A DNA stretch of 64,000 nucleotides from assembly GCF_024508335.1 (NCBI RefSeq), contig NZ_CP101988.1, forward strand, positions 1,302,001-1,366,000, written 5' to 3'. Positions 2-31,581 of this stretch are shown here, piece by piece. The notes below the pieces were generated by a model. The model did no database searches, was not told the origin of the DNA, and worked only from the letters and a program-made list of their open reading frames with translations. The first letter of the stretch is position 1; the number at the start of each line of letters is the position of its first letter. This stretch comes from Cellulomonas chengniuliangii (lineage in GTDB: Bacteria; Actinomycetota; Actinomycetes; Actinomycetales; Cellulomonadaceae). A program made the position numbers and the translations under genes.

Positions 2-1087
2 CTGGTGCCGCCCGGCTTCGACGTCAACGTCGTCGCGCAGTCCATGCGCAACCTGTGCGAATGGGGCGCCCGCCTGCTGATCCTGGGGCACGACCGGGAG
101 GCGACAGCCACTTTCGCCGAGCTGGCCTCGCGGGTGCTGCTGCTCCGTCGGATGTCGCACGGCGCCCCGGGCGAGAACGGGTTGGCGGCCGACTCCGCGG
201 AGATCGTCGCGATGGTGGGCCTCGGCGACCCCGAGGGCGCGCTGGCCCTGGCCGAGCGGGTCGGCCCAGCCCTGGAGGCCTACCGGGGGCGGCCGGAGTG
301 GCTGGCGGCCACCTGCGCGCGCGGGCTCGCGCTGACCGTCGTGGGCAGGCACGCGGAGGCGGAGGCCGTTGTCGCGGAGGTCCGTCCGGAGACGCTGACC
401 CGCGATCGGGACGTGTGGCAGACCGCCGTGGACGCGGTGCTGCTGCAGGCGGCCCGGGCCCGGTTCGGGGACCATCCGGCGGCCACGCAGGCCATCGCCA
501 TGTTCCGACGGGTCGCGCGCCGCACCTGGATCGACCGGGAGCAGCGCTTCGAGGCGCTGCTCAGCAAGGTCCGGATCCAGGAGCTCGTGGAGGAGAGCGC
601 CCGCGCCACCGCGCTGAGCTCGCGTGACGAGCTGACGGGCGTTGGCAACCGCCGGGCGATCCAGGAGTTCGTGTCCGGCGCCGAGGGCCCGGTCGCCGGC
701 GTCTTCATCGACGTGGACGACTTCAAGTGGGTCAACGACCAGCACTCGTACCTGGTGGGGGACGCGGTGCTGGTGCGCATCGCCGAGCTGCTGGGCCAGC
801 ACGCCCGCGACGAGGACCTGGTCGCGAGGTTCGGCGGCGACGAGTTCGTGATCCTGCCGGCGCCGGGCACAGTGATGACGGCGCTCGCCCTCGAGCGGCT
901 GGCTCGTCGGATCCTGGCCGGGGCGCGAGCTGCGGACTGGGACGCCCTCGCGCCTGGGCTGTCGGTGACGCTCTCGGTCGGCGTGGCCCGGGTGGAGACC
1001 GCGGAGGCGCTCTTCGACGGCCTGAGCCAGGCTGTGCGGGAGGCGAAGCGTGGCGGACGTGACCAGGTGGTCGTCGTCGGCGGATAA
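2..1087 (+). CDS. Diguanylate cyclase (GGDEF domain), 5'-truncated by the window edge
   Basis: The product would make cyclic-di-GMP from two GTP. The last ~170 residues form a GGDEF domain. The signature RFGGDEF lies at nt 827-847, and an RxxD inhibitory I-site (RDED) sits exactly five residues before GGDEF, so both catalysis and product feedback look intact. The ~200 residues before it are Ala/Leu/Arg-rich helices resembling TPR-like sensor regions, with no membrane segment visible. The frame is open to the left edge, so the true start is outside; the GTG at nt 5 is only the first start codon in view. recO begins 7 bp after the stop, so the two may be co-transcribed. Confidence 0.85.
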
Positions 1088-23649: not shown

Positions 23650-25629
23650 GTGGCAGGACGGATCCGGCGGGAGGACGTGCAGGCGGTCCGCGAGCGCGCC
23701 CACATCGAGGAGATCGTCGGCCAGCACGTGACGTTGAAGTCGGCGGGCGTCGGCTCCGCGAAGGGCCTGTGCCCGTTCCACGACGAGCGCTCGCCCTCGT
23801 TCCACGTCCGCCCCCAGGTGGGCCTGTGGCACTGCTTCGGCTGCGGCGAGGGCGGCGACGTCATCTCGTTCGTGCAGAAGATCGACGGCCTGCCGTTCGC
23901 CGAGGCCGTCGAGTACCTGGCTGGCAAGGTGGGGCTCCAGCTGCGGTACGAGGAGGGCGGCGCGCCACGCCCGGGCGAGGAGCCCGGTCGGCGCCAGCGC
24001 CTGCTCGAGGCGCACCGGGTCGCCGCGGCGTACTTCGTCGAGCAGCTGACCACCCCGGGGGCGGCCACCGCGCGACAGTTCCTCGCCGAGCGCGGCTTCG
24101 GCCGTGAGGCGGCCGAGCAGTTCGGCGTCGGCTACGCGCCCCAAGGGTTCGACTCGCTGCTGCGCCACCTGCGCGGCAAGGGGTTCACCGAGGCCGAGTT
24201 GACGGCGTCCGGGCTGGTGAGCCAGAACAACCGGGGGGTGTACGACCGGTTCCGCGGCCGCCTGGTGTGGCCCATCCGCGAGGTCACGGGCGACACGATC
24301 GGCTTCGGCGCGCGCAAGCTCTTCGAGGACGACCAGGGCCCCAAGTACCTCAACACCCCGGAGACCCCGCTCTACCGCAAGTCCCAGGTGCTGTACGGCA
24401 TCGACCTGGCCAAGCGGGAGATCGCCAAGGAGAAGCGGGTCGTGGTCGTCGAGGGGTACACCGACGTCATGGCGATGCACCTGTCGGGGGAGGGCACGGC
24501 TGTCGCGACCTGCGGCACGGCCTTCGGGCCGGACCACGCGCGGATCGTGCGCCGGCTCGTCGGCGACGCGGGCTCCAGCGGCGGGGTGCAGCTCGCGTCC
24601 GGGGCCTCGGTCGGCGGCGAGATCATCTTCACCTTCGACGGGGACGCCGCCGGCCAGAAGGCCGCCCTGCGAGCCTTCGGCGAGGACCAGACGTTCACCG
24701 CGCAGACCTTCGTCGCCGTCGAGCGCAGCGGCATGGACCCCTGCGAGCTCCGTCAGGCGCAGGGCCCGGACGCGGTGCGCGCACTGGTCGCCGGGCGCCA
24801 GCCGCTCTTCGAGTTCGTGATCCGCGCGACGCTGCGCGCCTACGACCTCGGCACCGCGGAGGGCCGGGTCGGGGCGCTGCGGGCCGCCGCGCCCGTCGTC
24901 GCCGGCATCCGCGACACCGCGCTGCGCCCCGAGTACACCCGCCTGCTGGCCGGGTGGCTCGGCATGGACCAGGCCTCCGTGAGCGACGCCGTGCGCTCCG
25001 CGGGCAGGCAGGGCGGCGGCGCGCGGGGCCAGGACTCGCGAGGCGGACGGCCCGACGGCTCGCGTGGCGGCCCACAGCGTGGAGAGCGCGTCCCCGAGGG
25101 GCAGCCCGTGCCCGTGGCCCGGATGCAGCAGCCCGACCGCCGTGACCCGGTGGCCCGCACCGAGCGCACCGCGCTCGAGGTGGTGCTCCAGCACCCCCAC
25201 CTCGTGCCCGCCGAGTTCGACCAGCTCCAGGCCGACGCCTTCACGGCGCCTGCCTACCGCGCAGTGCACGAGGCCGTCCGGGCCGCAGGAGGGCTCCAGG
25301 GGGCCCGTGAGGCGCTCGCCAGCACCGGCTCGGGGAACGCCGCCGCCTGGGTCGCCCGCGTCCAGGAGGAGGCCGCCGGGCCGGTCTCCGGGCTGGTCAC
25401 GGAGCTCGCGGTGGCGCCGCTGCCCGAGGACCGCCCGACGGCGCTCGCGGACTACGTCCGGGGCGTGGTGCTGGCGCTGGTCGAGATCGGCTTCACCCGC
25501 CACATCGCGGACCTGCGAGGGCGGCTGCAGCGGATGGACGGCGCCCAGGACCCCGAGGCGTACCAGGCCGCCTTCGCCGAGCTCGTGGCGGTCGAGGCAC
25601 GGCGCCGCACGCTGCGCGACAGCGCCTGA
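23650..25629 (+). CDS. dnaG: DNA primase
   Basis: Makes RNA primers for replication. The 659-residue protein has the N-terminal CHC2 zinc site (Cys41, His44, Cys62, Cys65 in CPFH...CFGC). The catalytic core with the Toprim acidic residues follows (VVVVEGYTDVMAMHLSG, FTFDGDAAGQKA). A Gly/Arg/Ser-rich linker of about 50 residues lies near residue 455, then a helical C-terminal domain that would bind the DnaB helicase. The Toprim region has a small Gly/Ser-rich insertion (GSSGGVQLASGASVGG) before FDGD. GTG start at 23650. Confidence 0.96.
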   Translation: MAGRIRREDVQAVRERAHIEEIVGQHVTLKSAGVGSAKGLCPFHDERSPSFHVRPQVGLWHCFGCGEGGDVISFVQKIDGLPFAEAVEYLAGKVGLQLRYEEGGAPRPGEEPGRRQRLLEAHRVAAAYFVEQLTTPGAATARQFLAERGFGREAAEQFGVGYAPQGFDSLLRHLRGKGFTEAELTASGLVSQNNRGVYDRFRGRLVWPIREVTGDTIGFGARKLFEDDQGPKYLNTPETPLYRKSQVLYGIDLAKREIAKEKRVVVVEGYTDVMAMHLSGEGTAVATCGTAFGPDHARIVRRLVGDAGSSGGVQLASGASVGGEIIFTFDGDAAGQKAALRAFGEDQTFTAQTFVAVERSGMDPCELRQAQGPDAVRALVAGRQPLFEFVIRATLRAYDLGTAEGRVGALRAAAPVVAGIRDTALRPEYTRLLAGWLGMDQASVSDAVRSAGRQGGGARGQDSRGGRPDGSRGGPQRGERVPEGQPVPVARMQQPDRRDPVARTERTALEVVLQHPHLVPAEFDQLQADAFTAPAYRAVHEAVRAAGGLQGAREALASTGSGNAAAWVARVQEEAAGPVSGLVTELAVAPLPEDRPTALADYVRGVVLALVEIGFTRHIADLRGRLQRMDGAQDPEAYQAAFAELVAVEARRRTLRDSA

Positions 25630-25635
25630 CCCCCC

Positions 25636-26442
25636 TCAGCGGAGCGTGGTGGGGGAGACCCCGTCGTCCGTGGGCAGATCGCCCTGCACGGTGGCCGTCA
25701 CGGTGAGTGCTTGGAGCACGACCTGCCCGCCGTAGCTCGACAGGAACGCGGTGTCGGTGGCGTCCCGGCCTGTCGCGATCCGCAGCATCGACGCGCGCGG
25801 CGCCAGGCCGGTGGCGTCGACGACGGTCCAGGCGCCGTCCACGAAGGCCTCGACGACCGCGTGGAAGTCCATGGGGCTGAGCCCGGGGGCGTAGACGGAC
25901 ACCAGCCGCGCGGGGACGTCACGTGCCCGCAGCAGGGCGATCACCAGGTGCGCGAAGTCGCGGCACACCCCGCGGCGCGTCAGGACGGTGTCCGTGGCGC
26001 CGTCGGTCGGCCCGCTCGAGCCGGAGAGGTACGTGACGTGCCCCCGCACCCACCGCACGACGGCCCCGAGGAGCTCCCTGCCGGCCAGTGGCCCGAACTG
26101 GTCCTGGGCGAACGCGAGCAGCTTGTCCGACTGCGCGTAGCGGCTGGGCCGCAGCGACTCCAGCACGTCGTTCTCCTCGACGGCCGGCGGGAGGTCGAGG
26201 CCGGAGGCCTGTGCCCAGTAGTCCACGACGACCGCGCCCGGGGGAGCGGCGACCCGGTGCACGCGCGAGCCGTGGGGGCCTTTCAGCTCCACGACGTCGA
26301 GCGGCTCATCCGCATGAGACACGGCCAGACGCTCCTGGCAGTCGTAGGCGCCGTCGGCGACCGCCAGGGCGAGGTACAGGTCGCTGGGCCCGAGCACGTC
26401 GAGCTCGAGGTGGGAGGTGACGGTCCGCAGCACCGACGTCAC
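25636..26442 (-). CDS. Transglutaminase-like family protein
   Basis: A cysteine-protease-fold protein of about 268 residues, likely cytoplasmic. The Cys-His-Asp triad is visible as GVCRDFAH (Cys), MDFHAVVEAF (His) and TVVDATGLAPR (Asp), preceded by an N-terminal beta domain (LRTVTSHLELDV). Enzymes of this fold act as peptidases, amidases or crosslinkers; the substrate is unknown. Start choice is open: GTG codons at 26469, 26442 and 26433 are all in frame. The first codons lie in a repeated sequence also found at 27321-27533, so part of its 5' end has been copied next to tRNA-Asn. Convergent with dnaG, 6 bp apart. Confidence 0.82.
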   Translation of the reverse strand: MTSVLRTVTSHLELDVLGPSDLYLALAVADGAYDCQERLAVSHADEPLDVVELKGPHGSRVHRVAAPPGAVVVDYWAQASGLDLPPAVEENDVLESLRPSRYAQSDKLLAFAQDQFGPLAGRELLGAVVRWVRGHVTYLSGSSGPTDGATDTVLTRRGVCRDFAHLVIALLRARDVPARLVSVYAPGLSPMDFHAVVEAFVDGAWTVVDATGLAPRASMLRIATGRDATDTAFLSSYGGQVVLQALTVTATVQGDLPTDDGVSPTTLR

Positions 26443-26558
26443 GACCTTTCGGGAGGGCACGGCTGGCACAGGGCGCGCTCGGCCCGTCGAGTACCGCGCG
26501 CAGATGAAGTGTGGGGCTGCGCGAAGCCCTGCGCCAGTGGGCGCCGTGGGCTTGAAAA

Positions 26559-26590
26559 AGGTCAGGCCCCCTCGAGAGGGGGCCTGACCT
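26559..26590. terminator. Perfect hairpin, left copy of the tRNA-Asn terminator
   Basis: Arms of 15 bp (26559-26573 with 26576-26590) pair perfectly around a 2-nt centre. The same hairpin is found at 27455-27486 behind the intact tRNA-Asn. On the minus strand it is followed by TTTTTCAAG, giving a good intrinsic terminator. Confidence 0.8.
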
Positions 26591-26603
26591 GGTGGAGCCT
26601 GTG

Positions 26604-26637
26604 CTCCCTCGACTGGACTCGAACCAGTAACCGTCCG
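26604..26637 (-). pseudogene. tRNA-Asn 3'-half remnant (att-like)
   Basis: These 34 nt equal the 3' part of the intact tRNA-Asn (27500-27533), from the 3' strand of the anticodon stem through the T arm to the discriminator base. The 5' half is absent; the sequence departs from the tRNA exactly at the anticodon loop. This is the pattern left by integration into a tRNA gene, where the displaced 3' end remains at the far end of the insert. Confidence 0.9.
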
Positions 26638-26646
26638 TTCCCTGGG

Positions 26647-27294
26647 TTAGGCCAGGTGGCGAGCGATCCGAAACCCGACATCGTCGATCCGCAGAGTCGG
26701 ATGGCTGCGCCGGCGCACGGAGGCGCGGCAGCTCCAGTGCTCGTCGAACCAGCCGCCACCGCGCAGCACCCGGTACGTGCCGTAGACCTCGGGGTCGTAG
26801 AGGTCCCAGCACCATTCCCACACGTTGCCGAGGGTGTCGTAGAAGCCCCAGGCGTTGGGCTCCTTGCCGCCGACCGCGTGCAGCCGTTCGCCGGAGTTGG
26901 CGCGGTACCAGGCGCTCACCGCTAGCGGTCCGTATCGCGGGCCGCTCGTCCCGGCGCGACAGGCGTACTCCCACTCCGCCTCGGTAGGCAGGCGGTAGCC
27001 GTCCGCTGACCGGTTCCATTCGACGTGCTCATCGGCGGGGTCGAGCCGATAGGCAGGAGTGAGGTCTTCGTGCCGTGACAGGGTGTTGCAGAACTCTGCC
27101 ACCTCCCACCAGGAGATCTCCGTCACCGGTAGCCGCCCTTCGTCCGCAGGCGGCGGCGGGAGGTTCAGGATTCGGTGAAAGTAGGCCCGGGTGACGGGCG
27201 TCGCCGACATCTCGTACGCACTGATCTCCACCGGCCAGCTTGCGCTGGTGCGGCGGTCGGTCAGGGTCACGGCGCCAGGCGCGACAGAGATCAT
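26647..27294 (-). CDS. Formylglycine-generating-enzyme/SUMF1-fold protein, cargo of the tRNA-Asn cassette
   Basis: A 215-residue protein made almost wholly of one FGE-sulfatase (SUMF1) domain. Landmarks: VTEISWWEVAEFCNTLSRHE, RLPTEAEWEYACRAGT, NAWGFYDTLGNVWEWCWD, YRVLRGGGWFD, and the C-terminal CRASVRRRSHPTLR / DDVGFRIAR. This fold serves formylglycine-generating enzymes, ergothioneine-type EgtB enzymes, pyoverdine tailoring enzymes and target-binding proteins. The paired active-site Cys of true FGE is not obvious, so it may not modify sulfatases. The ATG at 27294 is used (GTG at 27306 possible). The gene ends 10 bp before the tRNA-Asn remnant and is visibly lower in GC than its neighbours, suggesting acquisition. 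Confidence 0.8.
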   Translation of the reverse strand: MISVAPGAVTLTDRRTSASWPVEISAYEMSATPVTRAYFHRILNLPPPPADEGRLPVTEISWWEVAEFCNTLSRHEDLTPAYRLDPADEHVEWNRSADGYRLPTEAEWEYACRAGTSGPRYGPLAVSAWYRANSGERLHAVGGKEPNAWGFYDTLGNVWEWCWDLYDPEVYGTYRVLRGGGWFDEHWSCRASVRRRSHPTLRIDDVGFRIARHLA

Positions 27295-27320
27295 CGTGCA
27301 GGTCACGGAAGAACGTCCTC

Positions 27321-27572
<252 letters not shown>

Positions 27573-27664
27573 TCGTGGCGGAGACGACTCTAGCAGCCGT
27601 CTGAGGGTGGTCCGAAATCGGCGCCGGGAGGGGCCTCCGCACCCGGCTTCCACCCGGCTGGGCC

Positions 27665-28174
27665 TTAGTCCGGCAGCCCTGCGGCCCTGCGGACCCGGAC
27701 CTCGGCGGCGTCCACCTGGGCGGCCACCGCAGGCGAGGTGAGGTCGATCGCGCCGTCCCCGATGACTTGGGACACCAGGTCGCCGTCCTCGGCGCGGCGC
27801 AGTGCCACGCGTGCTGTGGCGCCGCCCGGCAGGGTGACGGTCTCCGCATGCACCACGGACGACTGCACCCGCTCGCGCAGAGTCTGCGCGAAGGCCGGCG
27901 CGCCCCGCTCCGTGAGCACGAGCTCCTGCGCCCAGCCGTCCACCCAGTGCACGGTGATGGTCGAGGTCTCGACGGTCAGGCTCGCCCGGTCCACGTCCAT
28001 CCACGGGCGCCGCTCGACGCTGTCCGTGGACACCACGCACAGCGCGCGTCGCGTGGCGACCGCCCAGCGGCCATCGGCGAGCTCGACGACCGCGAGAGCG
28101 CGGTCATGGGCCGGAAGGGCCAGCCGCGAGCGGATCGGGGCAGGCAAGGACGGGCGGCGCGAGAACAGGGGCAC
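27665..28174 (-). CDS. Hypothetical protein, actinobacterial
   Basis: A protein of about 169 residues without membrane segments or signal peptide. It reads as alternating strands (LAVVELADGRWAVATRRALCVV, SLTVETSTITVHWVDG) followed by two helices with VQSSVVHAETVTLPGGATARVALRRAEDGDL, suggesting a small beta-barrel or PH-like fold with a helical tail. I do not recognise a family. The GTG at 28174 is the likely start. It lies between two tRNA genes on the same strand. Confidence 0.7.
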   Translation of the reverse strand: MPLFSRRPSLPAPIRSRLALPAHDRALAVVELADGRWAVATRRALCVVSTDSVERRPWMDVDRASLTVETSTITVHWVDGWAQELVLTERGAPAFAQTLRERVQSSVVHAETVTLPGGATARVALRRAEDGDLVSQVIGDGAIDLTSPAVAAQVDAAEVRVRRAAGLPD

Positions 28175-28201
28175 GAGGCCACGGTAGTCGTGCTGCTGCG
28201 G

Positions 28202-28278
28202 TGGTGGGCCAGGTGGGGCTTGAACCCACGACCGACGGATTATGAGTCCGCTGCTCTGACCGGCTGAGCTACTGGCCC
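28202..28278 (-). tRNA. tRNA with CAU anticodon (Met or lysidine-modified Ile2)
   Basis: A complete 77-nt cloverleaf with encoded CCA: acceptor GGGCCAG/CTGGCCC, D arm AGCTCAGCCGGTCAGAGC, anticodon stem-loop GCGGACTCATAATCCGT, T arm GTGGGTTCAAGCCCCAC and discriminator A. It lacks the initiator hallmarks (no three GC pairs GGG/CCC in the anticodon stem). Elongator Met and TilS-modified Ile2 cannot be told apart safely here. Confidence 0.92.
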
Positions 28279-28365
28279 GCGACGGGACAGGGTACCGGTA
28301 TTCGCCGATCAGCCGCGTGATGCAGGGCGTCCGCGTGGTCGTGCCCGCGGCGGTCGCGGCGAGAC

Positions 28366-28398
28366 AGGGCGCCTCACCCGCACAGGATGAGGCGCCCT
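28366..28398. terminator. Hairpin upstream of the bldC leader
   Basis: Arms 28366-28376 and 28388-28398 (11 bp, perfect) with an 11-nt loop, in the 430-bp stretch without a protein gene between the CAU tRNA and bldC. Orientation is unclear. The remainder from 28400 to 28575 shows no feature I can support. Confidence 0.55.
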
Positions 28399-28579
28399 CG
28401 CCTGCTGTGGACTGGCCACGGCGTCCCGCTCGCGCCTGGACGTTGTCGCGAGCATAGGGCCGCGATGTCGCGCTCGCAGCAGATGCGTCGCTGCTGTCTG
28501 GTTCCTCCGGGCTCGACCGGGGACCTGGCGGTTCGGGGGAGATATTCCGGAGACCTTCCGTTTTCACCCGATGAGGTTG

Positions 28580-28608
28580 TTGCACGCTTGTCCAGTTTCC
28601 TGCATAGT
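28580..28608 (+). promoter_or_regulatory. Predicted promoter of the riboswitch-bldC transcript
   Basis: TTGCAC (28580-28585) and CATAGT (28603-28608) are separated by 17 bp, a good housekeeping-sigma promoter for a GC-rich actinobacterium. Initiation 6-8 nt after the -10 would start the RNA at about 28612-28616, exactly where the first paired strand of the riboswitch begins. Confidence 0.65.
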
Positions 28609-28611
28609 TCT

Positions 28612-28693
28612 GTTCGTCAGCGAGAACGGCAAACCCGCCGCAAGGTGGGGACGCAAAGCCACGGGGCCTACACGGCTAGCCGAGCTACCGAAC
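28612..28693 (+). promoter_or_regulatory. GEMM-I cyclic-di-GMP riboswitch in the bldC leader
   Basis: The aptamer carries the GEMM-I core in order: GGCAAACC (28628-28635); a 6-bp P2 stem 28634-28639 with 28644-28649 closed by a GCAA tetraloop (28640-28643); GACGCAAAGCC (28650-28660); then CACGGGGCCTA, CGGCTAGCC and GCTACCG. The closing stem GTTCG (28612-28616) with CGAAC (28689-28693) is present. The specificity base before CAAACC is G (28629), as in cyclic-di-GMP sensors; the cyclic-AMP-GMP variant usually has A. The ribosome-binding site AGGAG starts only a few nt after the closing stem, which points to control of translation of bldC. Confidence 0.9.
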
Positions 28694-28709
28694 GACAGGA
28701 GTCGAAGTC

Positions 28710-28940
28710 ATGGCCATTACCACCCCAAACCGCAACGAGTCCGCGACCCCGATGCCGGGTGCGCTGCTCACCCCCGGTGAGGTGGCCGTCCTGTTCCGCG
28801 TCGACCCGAAGACGGTCACGCGGTGGGCCCAGGCGGGCAAGCTCTCCGCGGTGCGGACCCTCGGCGGCCACCGCCGGTTCCACGAGGCCGAGGTTCGCGA
28901 GTTGCTGACGGGCGTCCCGCAGCAGCGCAGCGAGAGCTGA
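28710..28940 (+). CDS. bldC: BldC-type MerR-like DNA-binding protein
   Basis: A 76-residue single winged-helix protein, the MerR-type DNA-binding domain without effector domain. LLTPGEVAVLFRVDPKTVTRWAQAGKLSAVRTLGGHRRFHEAEVRELL and the PQQRSE tail match Streptomyces BldC closely along its whole length. BldC binds head-to-tail on DNA repeats and controls developmental timing in Streptomyces; in non-sporulating relatives its role is open. The ATG is preceded by AGGAG at 9-10 bp. The leader holds a GEMM-I riboswitch, so its synthesis should respond to cyclic-di-GMP. Confidence 0.95.
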   Translation: MAITTPNRNESATPMPGALLTPGEVAVLFRVDPKTVTRWAQAGKLSAVRTLGGHRRFHEAEVRELLTGVPQQRSES

Positions 28941-28959
28941 GCGAAGCACGCACCGCACG

Positions 28960-28990
28960 AAGCCCTGGGGACTCTGGGTCCCCGGGGCTT
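28960..28990. terminator. Terminator hairpin after bldC
   Basis: Thirteen-bp stem (28960-28972 with 28978-28990, one G-T pair) with a 5-nt loop, followed by TGTCGTG. It lies 20 bp after the bldC stop. Confidence 0.7.
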
Positions 28991-29126
28991 TGTCGTGCCC
29001 GGGGGACGAGCGCCGGGTGGCTGGACATCGGTGCTCCGCGTCCCGTGCCGACCTCCGGGCAGGGCGCTTGGGCCTGGCGGGCCGCGACGCGGACCGCGGG
29101 CCGTCCACGCATGAAACAATCCGTCC

Positions 29127-29615
29127 ATGGCGATGAGAGAGATCCGCACGGTCGGCGACCCGGTCCTGCGCACCCCCTGTGACCCGATCACCACTGTCGA
29201 CGAGCGAGTGCGCTCCCTCGTCGCGGATCTGGTCGAGACCGTGGACCACGATGGCAGGGCCGGCCTCGCCGCCAACCAGATCGGTGTGAACCTGCGCGCC
29301 TTCTCGTGGAACATCGACGACGAGGTCGGCTACGTGCTGAACCCGACCATCGTGGAGCTCTCAGACGACTACCAGGACGGTGACGAGGGCTGCCTGTCCG
29401 TGCCGGGCCTGTGGTACCCGACGCGTCGCGCCTGGTACGCCCGGGTCGTCGGCGTCGACCTCGACGGCGACGAGGTCGTGGTCGAGGGAACCGAGCTCAT
29501 GGCGCGCTGCCTGCAGCACGAGGTGGACCACCTGGACGGGATGCTCTACCTGGACCGGCTCGACCGAGCGGTCCGCAAGAAGGCCATGCGCGCGATCCGG
29601 GAACAGCTGGCCTGA
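29127..29615 (+). CDS. def: Peptide deformylase
   Basis: Metal enzyme that removes the formyl group from nascent proteins. The 162-residue protein contains all three motifs: GLAANQIGV (motif 1, about residues 48-56), EGCLS (motif 2, metal Cys) and QHEVDHLDG (motif 3, two His ligands and catalytic Glu). Start at the ATG 29127; a second in-frame ATG at 29133 would remove two residues. It has its own hairpins before and after. Confidence 0.96.
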
Positions 29616-29646
29616 TCTGCGCGGCCCTGAAATCGGGGTGATTCGC

Positions 29647-29670
29647 CCGACGGCTGGCGCGAGCCGTCGG
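29647..29670. terminator. Hairpin after def
   Basis: Nine-bp perfect stem CCGACGGCT/AGCCGTCGG (29647-29655 with 29662-29670) and a 6-nt loop, 31 bp past the def stop. No T tract follows. Confidence 0.5.
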
Positions 29671-29774
29671 CAGTCGGGCATGCTGTCCCCAGCACGCCGC
29701 GAGACCGTGTGCAACTTCCGGAAACGGGCTGAGGTCGTTGGGGAAGGCGAACCTCGATCCGTCAGGAGGGCGAC

Positions 29775-30275
29775 ATGGCAGGTGCGATCACCCGCGGTGT
29801 ACTTTTCGTGCACTCAGCTCCACGTGCGCTGTGCCCGCACTTGGAGTGGGCAGCAGGCAATCTCTTGGGCACCCGCGTGTCCATGGACTGGACGCCGCAG
29901 CCGGCTGCCCGGGGCATGTACCGCGCCGAGCACTCGTGGCAGGGCCCGCAGGGCACCGGCGCGCAGCTCGCCTCCGCGCTGCGTGGCTGGACCCACCTGC
30001 GGTACGAGGTGACGGAGGAGGCCAGCCACGGCTCCGACGGCGCCCGGTGGAGCCACACCCCTGAGCTCGGCATCTTCCACGCGGCCACTGACGTGCACGG
30101 CAACGTCGTGGTGCCCGAGGACCGGATACGCGCGGCGCTCGTGCACGCGGGAGACCCCGCCAGGCTCTGTGCCGAGCTGGACCTCGCCCTGGGGCAGGCG
30201 TGGGACGACGAGCTGGAGTCCTTCCGGTACGCCGGCGCCGGGGCGCCCGTCCGCTGGCTGCACCGCGTCGGCTGA
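29775..30275 (+). CDS. DUF3145 family protein
   Basis: A 166-residue cytoplasmic protein of the actinobacteria-specific DUF3145 family, function unknown. Typical landmarks are GVLFVHSAPRALCPHLEWA at the N terminus, WTPQPAARGMYRAEHSWQG, LRYEVTEEASHGSDGARW, and IFHAATDVHGNVVVPEDRIR. A strong ribosome site (AGGAGGGCGAC) precedes the ATG. It lies next to the fab cluster but on the opposite strand, separated by a bidirectional terminator. Confidence 0.9.
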   Translation: MAGAITRGVLFVHSAPRALCPHLEWAAGNLLGTRVSMDWTPQPAARGMYRAEHSWQGPQGTGAQLASALRGWTHLRYEVTEEASHGSDGARWSHTPELGIFHAATDVHGNVVVPEDRIRAALVHAGDPARLCAELDLALGQAWDDELESFRYAGAGAPVRWLHRVG

Positions 30276-30290
30276 GCCGCCCGGACGACA

Positions 30291-30324
30291 CGAAGGCCCC
30301 GACGTGACCGCGTCGGGGCCTTCG
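30291..30324. terminator. Bidirectional terminator between DUF3145 and fabF
   Basis: Fourteen-bp perfect stem (30291-30304 with 30311-30324) with a 6-nt loop, between two convergent genes whose stops are 60 bp apart. Confidence 0.8.
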
Positions 30325-30336
30325 TCGTGCGTGAGG

Positions 30337-31581
30337 TCAGGCGCTCGTGACCACCAGGGCGACGTTGTGGCCGCCGAACCCGAAGGAGTTGTTGATCGCC
30401 GCCACCTGGCCCGAGCGCAGGTCTCGCGGCTTGTCGCGGACCAGGTCCAGGACCAGCTCGGGGTCAGGGTCGGTGACGTTGATCGTCGGGGGAGCGGTGC
30501 GCTCCGCCAGCGCGAGCACCGTGAAGATCGTCTCCAACGCGCCGGCGCCACCGAGCAGGTGCCCGGTCATGGACTTCGTGGCGGACAGCGCCACCTGGTC
30601 CGCATCGGCGCCCAACACGTCCCGGACGCCCCGCGCCTCGATGAGGTCCCCGACCACGGTCGAGGTGGCATGGGCGTTGACGTGGACCACGTCGGCCGAT
30701 GTGACCTGCGCGTCGGCCAAAGCGCGGCTCATCGCCGCGATCTGGCCACGGCCGCTCGGCTCGGGGGAGGTGATGTGGTACCCGTCGCTGCTGAGCCCCA
30801 CCCCGGCGATCCGGGCGTACACCCGCGCCCCGCGGGCAGCGGCGTGCTCGGCGCTCTCCAGGACGACGATCCCGGCGCCCTCTCCCAGGACGAAGCCGTC
30901 GCGGTTGACGTCGTAGGGCCGTGACGCGCCCGCGGGGTCGTCGTTGCGCAGCGACACGGTGCGCGACGCCGCGAAGGCGGCCACCGGCAGCGGATGGATC
31001 GCCGCCTCGGTTCCCCCAGCGACGACCACGTCGGCCCGGCCCGAGCGGATCATCTCGACCGCGTAGCCGATCGCCTCGGCGCCGGACGCGCAGGCCGAGA
31101 CCAGGGCGTGGGCCCCGGCGCGGGCTCCGAGCTCGAGCTCCACGTAGGCGGCGGGGGAGTTGGGCATCAGCATGGGGACGGTCATGGGCAGGACGCGGCG
31201 CGCGCCCTTCTCCTGCAGCGTGTCCCAGCCGTCCAGGGTGGTCCAGATGCCGCCGATGCCCGAGGACACGACGGCGCCCAGGCGTTCCGGGTCGACCTCC
31301 GGGCTGCCAGCGTCGTCCCAGGCCTCGCGGGTGGCGATGATGGCGTACTGCGCGGAGGGGTCCATCCGCTTGATCTCCTGGCGCGGGAGCACCTCGGAGG
31401 GGGCGACCTTGATCTGCGCCGCGAACGTCAACGGCAGCTCGTAGGTCTCGGCCCAGTCGTTGTCGAAGTGCCGGGCGCCGGACTCACCGGCGAGGGCAGC
31501 GCGCCAGGTGCTGGCCACATCCCCGCCCAGCGGGGTCGTGGCGCCCAGGCCGGTGACGACGACGTCGGTGACGGGGGTCAT
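30337..31581 (-). CDS. fabF: Beta-ketoacyl-ACP synthase II
   Basis: Condensing enzyme that elongates acyl-ACP with malonyl-ACP. The 414-residue thiolase-fold protein begins TDVVVTGLGATTPLGGD, has the active-site Cys in LVSACASGAEAIGYA, and the two His in NAHATSTVVGD and TKSMTGHLLGGAGALE, ending with the NNSFGFGGHNVALV strand. The ATG at 31581 follows GGAG. Last gene of the minus-strand fabD-fabH-acpP-fabF cluster. Confidence 0.95.
   Translation of the reverse strand: MTPVTDVVVTGLGATTPLGGDVASTWRAALAGESGARHFDNDWAETYELPLTFAAQIKVAPSEVLPRQEIKRMDPSAQYAIIATREAWDDAGSPEVDPERLGAVVSSGIGGIWTTLDGWDTLQEKGARRVLPMTVPMLMPNSPAAYVELELGARAGAHALVSACASGAEAIGYAVEMIRSGRADVVVAGGTEAAIHPLPVAAFAASRTVSLRNDDPAGASRPYDVNRDGFVLGEGAGIVVLESAEHAAARGARVYARIAGVGLSSDGYHITSPEPSGRGQIAAMSRALADAQVTSADVVHVNAHATSTVVGDLIEARGVRDVLGADADQVALSATKSMTGHLLGGAGALETIFTVLALAERTAPPTINVTDPDPELVLDLVRDKPRDLRSGQVAAINNSFGFGGHNVALVVTSA

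Follow-up and report, generated by a model that had tools for sequence, protein, structure and literature searches.

A conserved GEMM-I aptamer in the leader of a bldC paralog of Cellulomonas chengniuliangii probably controls its translation in response to c-di-GMP

The analysed stretch of the Cellulomonas chengniuliangii chromosome (64,000 nucleotides, hereafter the window) contains a bldC paralog whose leader is best explained as a c-di-GMP-I riboswitch that probably controls translation of this gene through helix P1 in response to c-di-GMP, a reading to which we assign a probability of about 0.8. What was computed or observed directly is the conserved fold of the aptamer, its position next to the Shine-Dalgarno sequence and a genome with many c-di-GMP enzymes; control as such is predicted from them. 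According to the proposed mechanism, transcription would begin at or beside the first base of P1, so that the aptamer would form the 5' end of the mRNA and no distinct expression platform would follow it. P1, whose 3' strand (CGAC) abuts AGGAG, would then be clamped by bound c-di-GMP, and the clamped helix would alter how readily 30S subunits reach the start site. The amount of the BldC paralog would be changed in this way, and this putative DNA-binding protein would pass the signal on to further genes.

The search with cmscan (window positions 26000-31000) gave a match to RF03167 (c-di-GMP-I-GGC) at 28619-28693 on the forward strand. Its score was 67.8 bits, above the family cut-off of 59, and its E-value 5.4e-15. 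In addition, the covariance model of RF01051 (c-di-GMP-I), which the preliminary description had proposed to run on this leader, matched positions 28618-28692 with 64.5 bits against a cut-off of 35. Both scores bear out the near-consensus GEMM-I aptamer announced in that description, and its end was also rightly placed 3 nt 5' of the ribosome site, since the Rfam match stops 3 nt before AGGAG. The assignment to the GEMM family RF01051 stands in so far as the score exceeds the cut-off, but the top-scoring Rfam family is RF03167 instead. Once the outer P1 pairs are included, the aptamer occupies the predicted leader, and a single base separates it from the GGAG of the Shine-Dalgarno sequence (Table 1). 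Judging from the covariance models and the alignment of leaders, this segment is a real, conserved GEMM-I aptamer. The genome (3.57 Mb) has two RF01051 matches in all, that of the window being one of them.

The open reading frame behind the leader matched the NCBIfam profile HTH_BldC (NF033787), exceeding its cut-off of 77 bits with a score of 100.3, and residues 12-75 of its product match the solved chain 6ama (E 3.4e-28), which we take to be Streptomyces BldC. The order of genes is dnaG (23650-25629), a transglutaminase-like gene, tRNA-Asn, tRNA-Met, bldC and def (29127-29615). The terminator-like stem-loop located after bldC suggests that this gene forms a single-gene unit ahead of def.

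Table 1. Features of the aptamer-bldC region in the window, and EAL genes behind aptamers of two relatives (coordinates of loci L261 and L289).
Feature	Position	Strand	Basis
Predicted promoter: TTGCAC (28580-28585), 17-bp spacer, CATAGT (28603-28608)	28580-28608	+	Sequence and recurrence in relatives
Predicted 5' leader	28616-28709	+	Alignment of 59 leaders and upstream profile
c-di-GMP-I (GEMM-I) aptamer including outer P1	28616-28696	+	Rfam matches and leader alignment
Outer P1, 5' strand (GUC)	28616-28618	+	Leader alignment
P2 hairpin with GCAA tetraloop	28634-28649	+	cmscan and leader alignment
A at RF03167 model position 37 (family consensus G)	28655	+	cmscan alignment
P3 hairpin	28657-28686	+	cmscan and leader alignment
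Outer P1, 3' strand (GAC), adjoining the Shine-Dalgarno sequence	28694-28696	+	Leader alignment
Shine-Dalgarno sequence AGGAG	28697-28701	+	Sequence
bldC paralog, 76-aa MerR-like helix-turn-helix protein	28710-28940	+	HTH_BldC profile, solved chain 6ama
Terminator-like stem-loop after bldC	28972-28987	+	1 found; mean of 0.2 (sd 0.6) when 28300-29150 is shuffled
EAL phosphodiesterase gene directly 3' of aptamer	L261:419-1291	-	Pfam
EAL phosphodiesterase gene directly 3' of aptamer	L289:290-1183	+	Pfam

Conservation of the structure was evaluated in 59 distinct leaders from six genera, in which the named structure pairs in 95.8% of the cells. Changes on both sides of a pair were found in 44 cells belonging to 9 pairs, a value reached by none of 500 shuffles, although kinship among sequences can produce values above such shuffles even where no structure exists; when the partners were slid, pairing fell to 24-43%. 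Many bases of the leaders are invariant. The outer P1 is paired in 96.6% of the cells and two of its three pairs are changed on both sides. GUC/GAC is replaced there by UUG/CGA in five leaders, and, as these form one clade in the tree, the compensatory switch was probably a single event. A U-U mismatch interrupts the outer P1 of three g84 leaders, and in 33 leaders C and A face each other at one pair of P3. Finally, GGA starts between 1 and 5 nt behind P1 in 55 of the 59 leaders, the other four not being parsed by the pattern.

The preliminary description had made the aptamer start at a predicted promoter. A strict sigma-70 scan gave 0 matches for it; however, the two hexamers and their 17-bp spacer are visible in the sequence, and both a T-rich -35 region and a NATAGT hexamer recur in related upstream regions. 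In a profile anchored on the conserved leader block, the hexamer lies 6-8 nt 5' of this block in 28 of 57 upstream regions, a count that includes many close relatives. In the window this block, GTCAGCGA, has its first base at 28616 and lies 7 nt behind the CATAGT of the -10 region. From this spacing the transcript probably starts at or near 28616, where P1 begins. Many aptamer-bldC promoters also carry a TGTCC element between their -35 and -10 regions (28589-28593 in the window), which could be a site for BldC itself or for another regulator.

Since the spacing between P1 and GGA is kept, the transcript probably starts at P1 and the leader scan found no terminator-like site between the aptamer and the ATG, control of translation by P1 is the suggested step. 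The same scan led us to reject an intrinsic terminator as the expression platform. Folding prediction shows no clean switch. The unbound optimum is without the aptamer P1, and the forced aptamer fold is less stable than it by 3.3 to 7.9 kcal/mol. When the sequence reached 28760 or 28820, forcing the aptamer lowered the unpaired probability of GGA from about 0.55-0.6 to about 0.01, a loss of access that consists of pairing with coding bases and appears with at least 50 of them included; when it reached 28712 or 28740 (the ATG followed by 0 or 28 coding bases), the forced aptamer left the Shine-Dalgarno sequence open. On account of the drop in unpaired GGA we lean slightly to a predicted OFF response at high c-di-GMP over an ON response. 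A CGAC-AGGA-GUCG hairpin competing with P1 and carrying the Shine-Dalgarno sequence in its loop belongs to the predicted free state of the window; it was not retained as a candidate, its downstream partner varying among relatives.

The leader without intrinsic terminator and the absence of a clean switch in the computed folds would both be consistent with an aptamer acting on mRNA stability or on the access of Rho and not on that of the ribosome. However, the short distance kept between P1 and GGA would be needless for a control of stability, and we consider this explanation unlikely. The aptamer could also have travelled with a gene duplication and persist at the bldC locus as an inherited relic whose regulation has been lost. 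This is highly improbable in view of the pairing maintained over leaders from six genera, of their many invariant bases and of a tandem pair at L186, where both bldC copies are preceded by an aptamer of their own.

The contact positions of the window are canonical (G at 28628, A at 28655 and C at 28688), and in the Vc2 numbering they correspond to the ligand contact bases G20, A47 and C92; the G at 28628 agrees with the specificity base given in the preliminary description. A related ligand other than c-di-GMP would be sensed if the aptamer were an RF03167 (GGC) variant. This family not only outscores RF01051 in the window but is also the top one for 5 of 14 c-di-GMP riboswitch matches in 20 other loci, and the second aptamer of the genome has a better E-value with RF03167 (1.9e-14) than with RF01051 (3.4e-13). 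That same aptamer, however, obtains more bits with RF01051 (68.5 versus 63.2), EAL enzymes are encoded behind such aptamers in two relatives (199.7 bits at L261 and 199.5 bits at L289 with Pfam), and the G that distinguishes the RF03167 consensus at model position 37, a hallmark of the GGC variant according to our reading of the family name, is replaced by A in the window and in all 59 distinct bldC leaders, these having been chosen by a pattern that permits A or G at this position. Paired leaders outside that pattern include L085, L087, L175, L187, L188 and L192, and L085 has C at the position next to model position 37. The variant base was thus rejected for the window, and a variant ligand seems quite unlikely. 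The genome itself has 9 GGDEF and 7 EAL matches, one of the latter under the cut-off. The A at position 37, the canonical contacts, the EAL targets of relatives and these GGDEF and EAL enzymes together make ordinary c-di-GMP the likeliest ligand. The arrangement of aptamer and EAL gene at L261 and L289 could constitute a feedback loop. One gene for a GGDEF-domain protein lies in the window itself (5-1087, forward strand), about 27 kb from the riboswitch.

The distribution of the pairing was studied in 150 sampled genomes of the family, identified from the named loci as Cellulomonadaceae. RF01051 matches were present in 50 of them, corresponding to 7 of 25 genera, and BldC matches in 148. Comparison of the 150 listed aptamers with the 102 listed BldC places in these 50 genomes yielded at least 55 same-strand pairs in at least 47 genomes and six genera, 14-69 nt apart as measured to the start of the BLAST match and not of the gene. 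Two further genomes, G204 (L202, L203) and G219 (L085), are paired by sequence with gaps of 51, 30 and 55 nt, which brings the total to 49 of the 50 aptamer-bearing genomes; in G213, a 90% complete draft, no pair was found among the matches listed. More than one pair occurs in at least 7 of the 50 genomes, and one genome carries the two tandem units of L186 mentioned above. In another search, led by the riboswitch copy, 80 bldC loci were obtained; the aptamer is present in all 13 named Cellulomonas and Actinotalea loci (12 by pattern, L101 by cmscan), and no aptamer pattern appeared within 300 nt upstream in the 67 others, most of them from Streptomyces and the rest from other families. Likewise, cmscan of four bldC loci outside the family (L102, L147, L107, L122) gave no c-di-GMP aptamer.

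At the level of the order, RF03167 was detected in 26 of 198 genomes, 5 of them inside the family, all with the pairing. Among the 21 outside it, no aptamer beside a BldC match was found, in a comparison made by eye (E up to 1e-15) in which G064, G078, G113 and G134 were absent from the BldC rows listed and the second aptamers of G064 and G134 were left out. BLAST of 53 aptamer loci (22 from those genomes, 30 from a phylum search, and L005, a family locus where the aptamer precedes a gene other than bldC) gave no BldC. These order-wide searches used strict filters and a single variant model, so that weak aptamers could escape them. By these sequence comparisons the aptamer-bldC pairing is a clade trait confined, in the samples examined, to part of Cellulomonadaceae. 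The conservation among bldC leaders of relatives to which the preliminary description had looked is therefore found in 49 of the 50 aptamer-bearing family genomes but does not spread over the order. In the phylum, 155 of 396 genomes have RF01051, with none in six g90 genomes among the matches listed. Outside the family, sub-cut-off RF03167 matches at L022 and L027 precede genes with a GFTLIELLVV motif, typical of prepilin-like proteins.

The genome has a second BldC at genome position 310089 (locus L194), where cmscan found no c-di-GMP aptamer above the cut-off. The neighbours of this copy are common to the single bldC of all five sister genomes compared (L213, L216, L219, L222, L224). For the window copy, a set of five neighbours that includes dnaG and def was compared in the same way; none of them was found at 18 sister loci (about 4.5-5 kb each), at 13 copies that lack the aptamer in genomes bearing one, or at 5 loci of Streptomyces, Actinomadura and Planomonospora. 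The window copy was consequently ruled out as the syntenic bldC of the family. Because the neighbours shared with sister genera belong to the copy at 310089, the riboswitch copy looks like, and is best seen as, a clade-specific bldC paralog. Among the aptamer-bearing copies, for which the loci covered 1.5 to 3 kb on either side, def was found with 16 of the 25 from g1, g3, g7 and named relatives and with only 2 of the 20 from g74, g80 and g84. In a BldC tree of 88 sequences and 56 columns, with many open forks, the aptamer-bearing copies need 2 changes against a shuffled mean of 26.8 when L085 is labelled as aptamer-bearing, and 3 without that label. A single clade for these copies was not rejected (p-AU 0.34), 56 columns being too few to show a single origin.

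The parallel with Streptomyces drawn in the preliminary description holds in that a BldC-family gene does adjoin the aptamer; however, the BldC/BldD parallel is looser than proposed, because the gene is a probable clade-specific paralog and no aptamer precedes the copy whose neighbours are those of the sister genera. Neither bldC copy of this genome shares neighbours with Streptomyces over about 6 kb per locus. The leader resembles the RF01051 class in its fold, helices, GNRA-type tetraloop, contact bases and the EAL targets of relatives, and differs from it in having a BldC-family regulator as target and an aptamer-only leader with P1 against the Shine-Dalgarno sequence. RF03167 is the top family for it in the window, but the leader does not have the consensus G of that family at position 37.

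A c-di-GMP-I riboswitch ahead of a regulator gene is already known, as Vc2 of Vibrio cholerae stands before a tfoX homologue according to the accessible text of PMC6366702 and PMC12564702. That homologue is unrelated to BldC and comes from a distant phylum, and the same part of PMC6366702 warns that regulatory attributes are not necessarily transferable between species. The BldD-c-di-GMP circuit of Streptomyces, in the sections available of PMC6428758 and PMC5859096, likewise provides a c-di-GMP input to the Bld network, but its receptor is a protein at the DNA, whereas in Cellulomonas the receptor would be an RNA in the bldC-paralog mRNA. In the accessible text of PMC4255298, bldC and bldD are the most ubiquitous bld genes. 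Within the portions available, riboswitch and bldC are both mentioned but unrelated to each other in PMC11678152 and PMC2374992, a c-di-GMP riboswitch appears merely in a reference of PMC11626248, and PMC9788692 and PMC12452182 do not describe the pairing. As the preliminary description had supposed, no riboswitch-bldC pairing was found described in the accessible open literature, a scope that leaves subscription papers mostly outside. The riboswitch class is thus known and its bldC target apparently new. If confirmed, a regulator family would be added to the targets of c-di-GMP-I riboswitches, a simple aptamer-only leader would be available for the study of translation control by P1, and relatives of Streptomyces would be known where RNA wires c-di-GMP to a BldC-type protein, the messenger reaching a Bld-family regulator through an RNA-borne route. 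In that case, levels of the BldC encoded by the riboswitch copy should follow c-di-GMP through the leader and those of the other BldC should not.

Besides the bldC pairs, 97 aptamer loci of the family were sorted by the nearest start with a Shine-Dalgarno sequence, which is a loose rule. Proteins of less than 75 residues ending near P-x-Q follow at 34 of them, BldC at 4 and others at 59; by eye, three of the 34 resemble decayed BldC, and the small-protein class also accounts for some of the 59. Pfam analysis of ten chosen others identified two EAL, three DUF4214, two PKD-domain and one DUF7793 protein, and two had no match. The second aptamer of the genome, in the 3426-kb region, precedes a 58-residue protein (L228:2620-2796, reverse strand). 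Its family, of about 43-66 residues with a W-A core and P-x-Q near the end, recurs behind aptamers (L033, L034, L042, L044, L047, L048 and others). Alignment of 27 of these small proteins shows strictly conserved M, P and Q positions and an almost invariant W and A; in Pfam, one of the 27 had a single weak match (E 0.03). We give roughly even chances to a reading in which, in six genera of Cellulomonadaceae, c-di-GMP would control an extra bldC through RNA, as one part of a wider riboswitch regulon comprising EAL enzymes, probable surface proteins and this small Pfam-unnamed family; these odds were slightly lowered because the outer P1 switch was probably one event and because the six genera have their locus context only partly in common. 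That the small proteins are shrunken BldC was not supported, the profile comparison giving a probability of 3.3% over 13 columns. At L283, L287 and L295, the short aptamer-led open reading frames look by eye like decayed bldC copies.
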